A stretch of 14,441 nt of DNA from a bacterium (GTDB taxonomy: Bacteria > ARS69), in assembly GCA_025774805.1 (NCBI GenBank), contig JALGZR010000090.1, positions 15,625 to 30,065 of the forward strand. Direction: 5' to 3'. Below, piece by piece: positions 10,934-14,441 of the stretch (its first letter is position 1; each line of letters starts with the position of its first letter). The notes beneath the pieces are model-generated. The model was not told the DNA's origin. It saw only the letters and a program-made list of their open reading frames with translations, and ran no database searches. Both the position numbers and the translations under genes were made by a program.

Positions 10934-11054
10934 GGGGTGCACGTGCTCCCTCTCATCGGCGGGTTCCGGCCCGGGATTGAAGAGACGCGTTCTTGACACC
11001 CGGCGGGCCCTGTCCGACGCTTTCCCCCGATCAGCGAGGGTCCTTCCCCGGCGC

Positions 11055-11060
11055 GAGGAG
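11055..11060 (+). promoter_or_regulatory. Ribosome binding site fixing the ATG start at 11068
   Basis: GAGGAG lies seven bases before ATG 11068. The frame is open from 10993, but that ATG has no such site, so the start at 11068 is preferred. Confidence 0.6.
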
Positions 11061-11067
11061 ATCGCGT

Positions 11068-12414
11068 ATGGATCCCGACGCCCGCCCGCGTCCTCTGAGG
11101 GAGGCGGGGGCCCGCCTCGTGACGCGCGTTCGCGCGGACCGTTTGCTGCCGATCCTCTGCGTCCTCTGGATCGCGGCGCGCTTCCTTCCCGTCCCCGCAC
11201 TCGAACCGACGGTTCGCCTCTCGCTCGAGTCGATCCGGGTCCGCTCCTCTCCGATCACCGGGCGGTTTGAAATCGTGCCCGACCCCGACGATGCCATGCG
11301 AGGCGTGTGGGGTCCGAGGAACCCCCACTTCGAGGTTCCCGCGAGCCGTCTGGCGGGGGCCGTCTCGGAGGCAAACGACGGACTGTCCGAGATCGGGAGT
11401 CGAATCGCGGCCCGGGTGGAGGCCTTCCCCGACCGTTCGGCCGCCTTCCGGGTCTCCGGGCTGCTCGTCCCCTTCTACGGCCGTTCCGCGGAGCTTCTCG
11501 TGGAGGCGCGCGACACGGCGGGAGATCGTCCGAGGATCGCTCTGTCGACGATTGCGGAGATCCTGGAGACGCGTCTGGGGGAGCCGCGGGACGATCTCGT
11601 TCTCGAGGACACGACGCGCCTTCGCGATCTCACCCGCACCGTTCGGGAGATTCGCGATGCGATCGGCGATTCCGGCGCTTCCCTCGTGGGAGCTCTGGAC
11701 GATTTCCGCCTTGGAGCGAGCGAGATCGCTCGCCGCGCCTCCGGTCCCTTTCAGCGCCGAGGCCCGGGGAGAATCCTCGAGATCGTGCTCGCCGCGATGA
11801 TCGGAGCCGCGCTGCACGGCGTGCTTCGCCCGCGCTCCCCGCCCGCGAACCCGCTTCTCCCGCTGACGTTCGCCCCCGCGCTGGCCGCGGCCGTCCTGCT
11901 CTCGCTCGAGGGTACTCCCTTCCTGCCCGTCGACCCGGTCCAGGGGCTGACGCTCGCCTTCCTTCCGGCCGCTCTGGTGATCGGCTACGGTGGGGCCGCC
12001 GCGTTCCCCTCCCGGGTGTCCCGGATCGAAACGGAGGTTTCTGCGGCGGCCCCTTCGGCGGAGCGGTCCCCTGCGTCGAAGCCCGTCTCTCCGGCCGGCA
12101 CCCCCGCGCCCGACTCCCCGGCCCCGCGGGTCGCACCGGCACCTCCCTCGCCCTCCGTGCGAGAGTCCCCGGCACGGTCCGAGCGGGAGGTTCCGGAGGA
12201 TCCCGGTCTTCGAACCGGGAGAGAACCTCGAACGCCGACGACACCCGCCTCGATGCCGACGCGAATTGTCGCGCCGCCCGCGGCCCGTCCCTCCCCGCCG
12301 CCTCGATCAACCCCGACCCGCGAGCCCCGTCCGCCGGCGCCGACGCGAACGCCCCCGCCCTCCCCCGTCGAGAGAAAGGTCCCCTTCTTCCGGAGAAGGC
12401 GTCCGGGGTCTTGA
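11068..12414 (+). CDS. Uncharacterised membrane protein with proline-rich C-terminal tail
   Basis: No family is recognised. The 448-residue protein has an N-terminal helix at about 25-41 (LLPILCVLWIAARFLPV). A soluble segment at about 45-232, with mixed strand and helix character, probably lies outside the cytoplasm. It includes amphipathic helices rich in Arg and Asp around 160-225. Three hydrophobic helices follow at about 236-254, 264-281 and 292-312. Residues 320-435 form a low-complexity Pro/Ala/Ser/Arg/Thr tail, closing with KVPFFRRRRPGS. With four helices the tail would be cytoplasmic if the N-terminus is cytoplasmic. The even codon use and the ribosome site argue that it is a real gene. 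It is divergent from the small membrane protein (145 bp) and convergent with the radical SAM-like gene, whose stop is 53 bp away. Confidence 0.72.
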   Translation: MDPDARPRPLREAGARLVTRVRADRLLPILCVLWIAARFLPVPALEPTVRLSLESIRVRSSPITGRFEIVPDPDDAMRGVWGPRNPHFEVPASRLAGAVSEANDGLSEIGSRIAARVEAFPDRSAAFRVSGLLVPFYGRSAELLVEARDTAGDRPRIALSTIAEILETRLGEPRDDLVLEDTTRLRDLTRTVREIRDAIGDSGASLVGALDDFRLGASEIARRASGPFQRRGPGRILEIVLAAMIGAALHGVLRPRSPPANPLLPLTFAPALAAAVLLSLEGTPFLPVDPVQGLTLAFLPAALVIGYGGAAAFPSRVSRIETEVSAAAPSAERSPASKPVSPAGTPAPDSPAPRVAPAPPSPSVRESPARSEREVPEDPGLRTGREPRTPTTPASMPTRIVAPPAARPSPPPRSTPTREPRPPAPTRTPPPSPVERKVPFFRRRRPGS

Positions 12415-12466
12415 CCGAACCGGGTCTCACGCGCGGCGCCGGGGCGCAGGGCCTCCGCGGAATCGA

Positions 12467-13210
12467 TCAGGATCCGGAGAAGTCGCGACGGTCGACGATC
12501 GTGGAGTCATCGAGAAACGCGCCCGCGCTCGCGTGGACGGCTTGGCGGACCCGCTCGAGGGCATCGGGCAGGCCCTCCTCCGCCGCGTCCGGAGCGGGGA
12601 TCACGAATACACGGTCGGGGCGGATGCGACGCACGCAGCGCGCCCAAGCCTCCACGGACGCGCGGGTGTCGTTTCTCCCGGGATGGACCGGAAGCTCGAG
12701 CGCGACTCCCGTCGGCGTCTCCCGCCGGAGCGAAGCGACCCCCTCGACGTGAACCTCGAACGCCTCCCTCCGCTCGAGGCCGCGGGGATCTTCCGCCGAA
12801 TCCTCCAGAGCGGGAAGCCAGGCCGCGATGATCCCCGCCTCTCCGGCCTCCCGGCGCGTGTCGCGGTCGCGCAGGAGGATCCCGTCGGTCAGGACGACCG
12901 TGGTGACGTGGGCGGAGGTGCGGAGACGGCGGAGAACGGGTCCGAGGCTCCGGTGCCGAAGGGGATCCCCCGGCCCCCCGAACACGACCGCGTCGACCGC
13001 CGCCCCCCGGTCCAGGGGGGTGAGGATGGCGCGGAGCACCGCCTCGGGAGCGCTGTAGTGGGTGCGCCGCAGGGTCTCCGGGGAGCGGGCGAGCACGTTC
13101 TCGTACCGGCCCGGCCGCCCGGGGGGAGGGCCGGGCGCGATCTCGACGAAGAGCACGCGACCAAAGCGTACCGAGTCGCAGGGCTCGTGAACGACGGGGG
13201 CGAAGGCCAT
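12467..13210 (-). CDS. Radical SAM-like protein without the cluster cysteines (COG0731-like pseudoenzyme)
   Basis: This 247-residue protein follows the pattern of COG0731-type radical SAM proteins. The N-terminus SVRFGRVLFVEIAPG (13-27) fits the 'SRRLG.SLGVDLVP' strand. VDAVVFGGPGDPL (72-84) fits the strand with the GGE-like loop. VVLTDGILLRD (105-115) fits 'VLTNGSLL'. GEAGIIAAWLPALEDS (123-138) fits 'ADLVLPSLDA'. HPGRNDT (176-182) and RRIRPDRVFVIPAP (194-207) complete the barrel. The loop that should carry CxxxCxxC instead reads GPPPGRPGRYEN (27-38). The only cysteines in the protein are Cys11 and Cys192, so no 4Fe-4S/SAM chemistry of the usual kind is possible. I infer a repurposed or inactive fold. 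The ATG at 13210 has GGGAGG close before it. It is divergent from the transpeptidase-like gene. Confidence 0.72.
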   Translation of the reverse strand: MAFAPVVHEPCDSVRFGRVLFVEIAPGPPPGRPGRYENVLARSPETLRRTHYSAPEAVLRAILTPLDRGAAVDAVVFGGPGDPLRHRSLGPVLRRLRTSAHVTTVVLTDGILLRDRDTRREAGEAGIIAAWLPALEDSAEDPRGLERREAFEVHVEGVASLRRETPTGVALELPVHPGRNDTRASVEAWARCVRRIRPDRVFVIPAPDAAEEGLPDALERVRQAVHASAGAFLDDSTIVDRRDFSGS

Positions 13211-13214
13211 GCGC

Positions 13215-13220
13215 CCTCCC
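13215..13220 (-). promoter_or_regulatory. Ribosome binding site fixing the ATG start at 13210
   Basis: GGGAGG on the minus strand lies four bases before ATG 13210. The in-frame ATG at 13267 has no comparable site, so the shorter 247-residue product is preferred. Confidence 0.6.
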
Positions 13221-13303
13221 GGGTGACTCGGACGGACGGAGACGGCATTTTCGGCAGTGGGGACCATCGTGTAAAGTAGAGGTGAAGCAGTTCGGGAGGT
13301 TCC

Positions 13304-14143
13304 ATGCCCGCCGTCGCCATCGTCGCCTCGATGCTCGTCTCGTCGCCTCCCCCGGTGATGGATCACTTTCCGGAAGAACAGAACCCGTCCCAGGTGCTGC
13401 TCGTCGAGGATCTCCGATCCGGGGAGACGATTCGGAGGGAGAACGCCGGGGCGGCCGAGGAGATCCGTTTCCCCCTGGGCGAGTCGGCGCGATTGTTGTT
13501 CGCCCTCGCGGGGCTGGAGGAGCGATTGCTCGATCCGAGACGGAGGGTCCCCTGCGATTCCCTCTGCTGGGCGCGGGGCGGCCACGAGCTCGCCGACCTC
13601 TCCATGGCGGTCGCGTTCTCCTGCGATGCTTACTTCCGCTCGCTCCTTCCCGAGATCGGAGGAGAGCCCATTCGCCGCCACGCCCTTCGCGCGGGGTTCG
13701 GGCCGGACGTACCCTCCGCGACGGCGATCGAGAGCGCGGACGGTTTTCCGGGGGACGGGTGGAGCGCCACGGCCCGCCAGTGGATCGAGTTCTGGAGAGG
13801 TGTACAGAGGGGCACGCTCGGGCTGCGCTCCGCGACGACGTCGGCACTTCTCGCCGCGAGCGGAATGGCGGTCTCCTCCCCCCGCGGACTCGCCCGGGGT
13901 CTCCACGATCCCGTCCGTCGCGTCCGGGCCGCCGTCGGTGACACCGAAGAGGGAGCCTGGGTCACGGGAATCCGCCACCTCCGGGGAGGTGGACCCTGGT
14001 TGTTCGCCCTCCACGTTCGCGGGGCCACCGCGTCTCTGGTGACGGCACGGGCGGACCACATCCTGCGCGAGACGATCCGCACCTGGGAGCACACGTCACC
14101 GAACCGGGTGGGGCGCCCGCTCCCCCCCGTGACCGAGCGATAG
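13304..14143 (+). CDS. Penicillin-binding-protein-like transpeptidase domain with altered catalytic motifs
   Basis: The 279-residue protein resembles the transpeptidase domain of high-molecular-weight PBPs and class D beta-lactamases. VLLVEDLRSGETIRREN (31-47) fits the opening strand. FPLGESARLLFALAGLEERL (56-75) fits 'PPGSTFKLVTALAALE'. VPCDSLCWARGGHELADLSM (82-101) and AVAFSCDAYF (102-111) fit the 'CW..GGHG.vdL..AL..SCN.YF' block. EGAWVTGIRHL (216-226) fits the KTG strand. By this alignment SxxK is ExxR (Glu60, Arg63), SxN is SCD (106-108), and KTG is VTG (220-222). Ordinary acyl-serine catalysis therefore looks lost. A short hydrophobic N-terminus (AVAIVASMLV) may be a weak export signal, although it lacks positive charge. 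GGGAGG lies four bases before the ATG, and an in-frame TGA at 13283-13285 rules out a longer form. A serine hydrolase relative with other chemistry is the alternative. Confidence 0.68.
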   Translation: MPAVAIVASMLVSSPPPVMDHFPEEQNPSQVLLVEDLRSGETIRRENAGAAEEIRFPLGESARLLFALAGLEERLLDPRRRVPCDSLCWARGGHELADLSMAVAFSCDAYFRSLLPEIGGEPIRRHALRAGFGPDVPSATAIESADGFPGDGWSATARQWIEFWRGVQRGTLGLRSATTSALLAASGMAVSSPRGLARGLHDPVRRVRAAVGDTEEGAWVTGIRHLRGGGPWLFALHVRGATASLVTARADHILRETIRTWEHTSPNRVGRPLPPVTER

Positions 14144-14192: not shown

Positions 14193-14441
14193 TTACCTCA
14201 GCCGCACCGCCTTCTCGACCAGCTCGACTCCGGGCGCGGTGAGCCGGAGCAGGTAGAGGCCGGGGACCACCGGTCGTCCGTCCTCGTCGCGACCGTTCCA
14301 GCGGACGGTGTGGTTCCCCCCGATGAGGGGGCGGTCGAGGACGTTCCGCACGAGCTTTCCCGAGACGTCGTAGACGCGAAGGGTCACGTGGGTGGGGGAC
14401 GGCACCCGAAAGCGCAGCTCCGTCCGCCCCGAGAACGGGTT
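14193..14441 (-). CDS. C-terminal FlgD-Ig-like sorting domain of a secreted or surface protein (N-terminus beyond the right edge)
   Basis: The visible 82 residues start NPFSGRTELRFRVPSPTHVT and continue with LRVYDVSGKLVRNVL, then GNHTVRWNGRDEDGRPVVPG and LYLLRLTAPG, ending in VRLR and a TAA stop. This is the standard 'NP...F.VP....V.L.VYDVSGR.V..L......G.H.V.WDG.D..G..V..G.Y..R' pattern of the Ig-like C-terminal domain (FlgD_ig / type IX-style sorting domain). It is found at the ends of large secreted proteins in the FCB group. The catalytic or binding part of the protein is outside the window, so its function cannot be given. The start codon is not present. The gene is convergent with the transpeptidase-like gene. 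Confidence 0.88.
   Translation of the reverse strand, partial: NPFSGRTELRFRVPSPTHVTLRVYDVSGKLVRNVLDRPLIGGNHTVRWNGRDEDGRPVVPGLYLLRLTAPGVELVEKAVRLR

Follow-up and report, generated by a model that had tools for sequence, protein, structure and literature searches.

The cluster cysteines are the usual mark by which a radical SAM protein is identified, and standard models consequently miss members that have lost the cluster. Among the described systems closest to the protein reported here, the pyruvate formate-lyase activating enzyme (PFL-AE) binds a [4Fe-4S] cluster and SAM. Another, TYW1, is an active and longer radical SAM enzyme that figures among the relatives of known structure of the COG0731-type profile. 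A literature search for radical SAM pseudoenzymes, or for members without the motif, returned nothing on point, an absence that carries little weight given the thin coverage of subscription journals. Here we report a protein encoded in the window (the whole 14,441-nucleotide stretch of bacterial DNA that was analysed; Table 1) that is a case of such a missed member, with Pfam scores under the cut-off and no credible name from NCBIfam. We consider it rather probable that this is a lineage-restricted pseudo-radical-SAM protein whose ancestor had lost SAM cleavage, with a probable four-cysteine site in its relatives and none in the window protein itself. Most likely, the window protein descends from an enzyme that has been put to another use.

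Table 1. Positions in the window of the gene, its motif remnants, its expression signals and its neighbours
Feature	Position	Strand	Remarks
Pseudo-radical-SAM protein gene	12467..13210	-	247 aa; (beta-alpha)6 barrel; ATG start
Former cluster loop GPPPGRPGRYEN	13097..13132	-	Residues 27-38; replaces CxxxCxxC
Former GGE-type SAM motif, now GGPGDP	12962..12979	-	Residues 78-83; from alignment
Strand-3 end TDG	12881..12889	-	Residues 108-110; canonical TNG (N in 33/34)
C-terminal DFS	12476..12484	-	Sits where two orthologs have CLC/CWC
Ribosome-binding-like GGAGG	13215..13219	-	4 bases before ATG; read directly from sequence
Promoter-like TTTACA-17-GAAAAT	13247..13275	-	9/12; consensus match only
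Convergent neighbour, proline-rich tail	10993..12414	+	No Pfam match; beside the gene in all three genomes having it
Divergent neighbour, truncated PBP2-type transpeptidase domain	13304..14143	+	ExxR for SxxK; KTG segment missing

Homology, fold and motif residues of the window protein

Profile searches with the single sequence gave weak results. Against Pfam PF04055 (Radical_SAM) the window protein alone scored 14.2 bits (E 0.051), under the gathering cut-off of 29.5, and the NCBIfam match was a fragmentary one to radical SAM, far under its cut-off; all three members of the clade to which the protein belongs matched the Pfam Radical_SAM family, the best with an E value of 4.7e-5. Profile-profile comparison was decisive. 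The three-member clade alignment was matched by hhalign to six canonical COG0731-type proteins with 99.5% probability and an E value of 3.6e-22 over 233 columns (28% identity), which supports the strand-by-strand correspondence with COG0731-type radical SAM proteins claimed in an earlier note on this DNA, and homology to these proteins is firm at the level of sequence profiles. The family name COG0731 is our assumption, taken from that note and from the GPVPSRRLG signature. A PDB match to 2mpe (BPSL1050, E 4e-4) was set aside as chance because its E value weakened to 0.029 when the clade profile was used.

AlphaFold2 models were built from two sequences. The model of the window protein (pLDDT 69.2, pTM 0.68) contains a strand at residues 17-23, a loop, a helix (55-67), and then alternating strands (74-78, 104-107, 128-131, 169-175 and 200-205) and helices (89-98, 116-125, 144-164, 183-196 and 214-229), a predicted strand-helix order that is that of the radical SAM partial barrel. 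At the top of both the Foldseek and the VIA-align lists stand only radical SAM chains, so a different fold, which the earlier note named as a refutation, is not indicated. Hhalign, the model and the fold searches agree in placing the protein with the radical SAM superfamily and its partial (beta-alpha)6 barrel. Confidence falls below a pLDDT of 50 in the cluster loop (26-52), at residues 80-86 and at the C terminus (233-247); the model of the G004 ortholog (see below) is similar, and the regions around its four conserved cysteines also lie below 50.

All three cluster cysteines are present in each of the 34 non-redundant canonical relatives aligned, so their loss in the window protein is not ordinary variation. 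The aligned positions are occupied by P30, G34 and E37, and the only cysteines, C11 and C192, are not conserved in the orthologs; neither CxxxCxxC nor a variant three-cysteine cluster motif is present, nor any other cysteine cluster. This confirms the earlier observation of only two cysteines among 247 residues and of a cysteine-free cluster loop. Because the cluster ligands are missing, established radical SAM chemistry leaves no place in the window protein for a [4Fe-4S] cluster that cleaves SAM.

The remainder of the barrel, described in the earlier note as well kept, is so with the qualification that several residues near the SAM site have changed. The glutamate of the GGE-type motif that contacts SAM, present in 34 of 34 canonical proteins, is replaced by D82 in all three clade members, a conservative change from GEP to GDP; the change from TNG to TDG is likewise common to all three; and the RPP motif that follows strand 6 in the canonical family (as RPPAE) is gone from every member. 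The S, R, G and L of the canonical start GPVPSRRLGxSLG are kept and the remainder is changed. Residues retained in all three members comprise S13, R15, G17, L20, Y36, R49, D73, the glycines and proline of GxG.P, T108 and E172. The C-terminal tail of canonical COG0731-type proteins, which we take to be winged-helix-like from our own reading and one weak Pfam HTH match, is absent from the clade.

Orthologs and the cysteine series

Five genomes of the window's phylum were searched, the window genome (G000) and four relatives, and the gene was found in three: the window genome, G004 (55% identity) and G002 (46% identity). The two genomes without it are 67% and 82% complete. The sole clade member in the genome_contigs collection was JALGZO010000644.1, and the viral contigs searched held none. 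Outside the phylum, best matches drop from approximately 440 to approximately 88 bits, and each of those read with a complete N terminus has CxxxCxxC. A phylogenetic tree unites the three members in a single clade with support 100/100, and their common stem measures 3.25. A homolog with CxxxCxxC at the same locus, which the earlier note had said would speak against its reading, was not found in the five phylum genomes, in 386 relatives or in the genome_contigs collection, and both orthologs lack the first cysteine. The window genome also encodes a canonical COG0731-type paralog (L021:1940-2887, minus strand, contig C187) with the motif CNYVCIYC, which groups in the tree with the canonical rows and not with the clade; it was not found in the other four phylum genomes and may have arrived by horizontal gain or stem from contamination during binning.

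The first cluster cysteine is replaced in all three clade members (by P, P and E). The second and third survive as CRYC in G004 and G002, which carry in addition a C-terminal CLC or CWC, so that the cysteines are residues 45, 48, 252 and 254 in G004 and 34, 37, 243 and 245 in G002, with no others in either protein. This C-terminal CxC of the relatives, invisible from the window alone, was lost along with CRYC in the window protein. The two orthologs are identical to each other at 110 positions, 26 of which differ in the window protein; by chance, those 26 would include all four cysteines with a probability of 0.0026. The simplest inference, resting on three sequences, is that the four cysteines work as a unit and disappeared as one in the window lineage. 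A four-cysteine metal site is probable in G004 and G002, with none in the window protein, which is, as far as these alignments go, the end state of the clade's cysteine loss. The check proposed in the earlier note, whether a clade shares the cysteine-free loop, gives a divided answer: CxxxCxxC is unusable and the SAM pocket is changed in all members, but the fully cysteine-free loop belongs to the window protein, the relatives keeping CRYC.

Each ortholog having exactly four cysteines, the relatives might still be radical SAM enzymes in which the loop CxxC and one C-terminal cysteine hold an open-iron [4Fe-4S] cluster, with only the window copy dead or repurposed. At the SAM site only conservative substitutions are seen (E to D, N to D), and the cluster cysteines of Dph2 come from separate domains, which provides a precedent for relocated ligands. 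We nevertheless regard this as unlikely, since the canonical SAM-pocket residues and the RPP motif have been lost in all three members, the stem is long, as would be expected had the function changed before the split, and four cysteines need leave no iron open. The reading that we prefer places the loss of SAM cleavage in the common ancestor of the clade; the long stem points to a single large change in constraint that preceded the divergence of the members.

Gene integrity, constraint and neighbourhood

The codon-position G+C of the open reading frame is coding-like (0.79/0.54/0.86), and a search for sigma-70-like promoters in positions 12300-13400 returned a single match, just upstream of the gene and on its strand, against a shuffle mean of 0.0. 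A frameshift or single sequencing error was ruled out, because the frame is intact on either side, two separate regions (the loop and the C terminus) differ, and several codons are altered.

A decaying pseudogene, its frame kept open by nothing more than the very high G+C content of the DNA, would account for the loss of all four cysteines and for the absence of the gene from two of the five genomes, and chance open frames are common at high G+C (compare the 55 listed ORFs). The substitution record runs against it: changes unique to the window protein number 24 versus 29 unique to G004, and no end branch in the clade is shorter than that of the window protein (0.28, against 0.55 and 1.26), which argues against simple decay or relaxed later evolution. 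Identity by codon position is 69/73/43%, positions 1 and 2 being far better kept than position 3, with synonymous sites saturated at clade distances; the ribosome-binding-like site and the promoter-like match also count against a pseudogene, which we consider improbable. These measures show a barrel that, in the window lineage, appears to have kept evolving at an ordinary rate while all four cysteines were lost. The gene may be dispensable, as it is missing from two of the five genomes and the clade counts just three known members; recent decay in the window's own species alone is also possible.

The divergent neighbour, compared with the lineage's own PBP2 proteins, has GESAR in the window and GEAIR in G004, with SCDxYF kept. 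It is present in G004 and absent from G002, which has the pseudo-radical-SAM gene, so the two genes are not obligatory partners. In the window, two inactive-looking enzymes, the pseudo-radical-SAM protein and the PBP2-like domain, are divergently paired. The SxxK-less neighbour could be a hint of a decaying region, though G004 also has an SxxK-less neighbour. Genes for SGNH/AlgX-like hydrolases (L024:7123-8331, L023:3279-4424) adjoin the pseudo-radical-SAM gene in G002, where the latter overlaps the hydrolase stop by 4 bases, and lie nearby in G004; no homolog was found in the window genome at E 1e-20. At positions 14193-14441 (minus strand) lies a gene that the window edge truncates, with a FlgD-like Ig sorting domain at its C terminus; in G002 the corresponding domain ends an S8 protease. 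Taken together, the neighbours weakly suggest an envelope-related role for the window protein.

It is very unlikely that the barrel is instead a cofactor-free or divalent-metal enzyme in which D82, D109, E172 and E23 bind metal or substrate for a non-radical reaction: all three members carry the E to D and N to D substitutions, which lie at ends of strands that point into the active site of the radical SAM fold, but the genomic context points to no reaction, and part of the residue geometry falls in low-confidence regions of the model (80-86, pLDDT <50).

Proposed history and comparison with known radical SAM proteins

We favor a pseudo-radical-SAM protein put to other use, with the following history. 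Sequence and model comparison show that an ancestral COG0731-type barrel lost its first cluster cysteine, and that its GEP became GDP and its TNG became TDG, ahead of the diversification of the clade. The other two cysteines persisted in two descendants, which with the C-terminal CxC carry exactly four; these may have held one metal, either zinc or an iron-sulfur cluster without free iron for SAM. The window lineage lost all four, the metal site there presumably having become dispensable, which would leave a protein presumably unable to bind the radical SAM cluster or to cleave SAM reductively. A cofactor-free binding or regulatory role is the most likely for such a protein, which may hold a small molecule or a partner at the barrel mouth; E23, D82, D109 and E172, at acidic strand ends, are candidate ligand-binding residues. 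The full graded series, in which the ancestor loses Cys1 and its SAM contacts change, CxxC is re-used with a new CxC as a metal site, and the window lineage discards that site and keeps the barrel for cofactor-free binding, is a tentative proposal, conceivable but short of probable. Because it contains both an intermediate (two of the three cysteines and a new pair) and an end state with none, the clade offers a concrete test case for asking if a barrel deprived of its cluster can still be useful, and which of its residues were tied to that cluster.

The COG0731-type proteins resemble the window clade in an alignment that extends across the whole barrel at 28% profile identity. The window protein differs from them in having no cluster cysteines, in having GDP for GEP and TDG for TNG, in the disappearance of RPP, and in lacking their C-terminal domain (247 versus approximately 315 aa). 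In fold, the best VIA-align match to the window model is PFL-AE (3cb8; Z 13.1, rmsd 4.0 over 209 residues), which is similar in length (approximately 245 aa) but only 13% identical to the window protein; NifB follows at Z 12.3, and TYW1 at 11.8 (2yx0) and 11.0 (2z2u), with only 12-13% identity.
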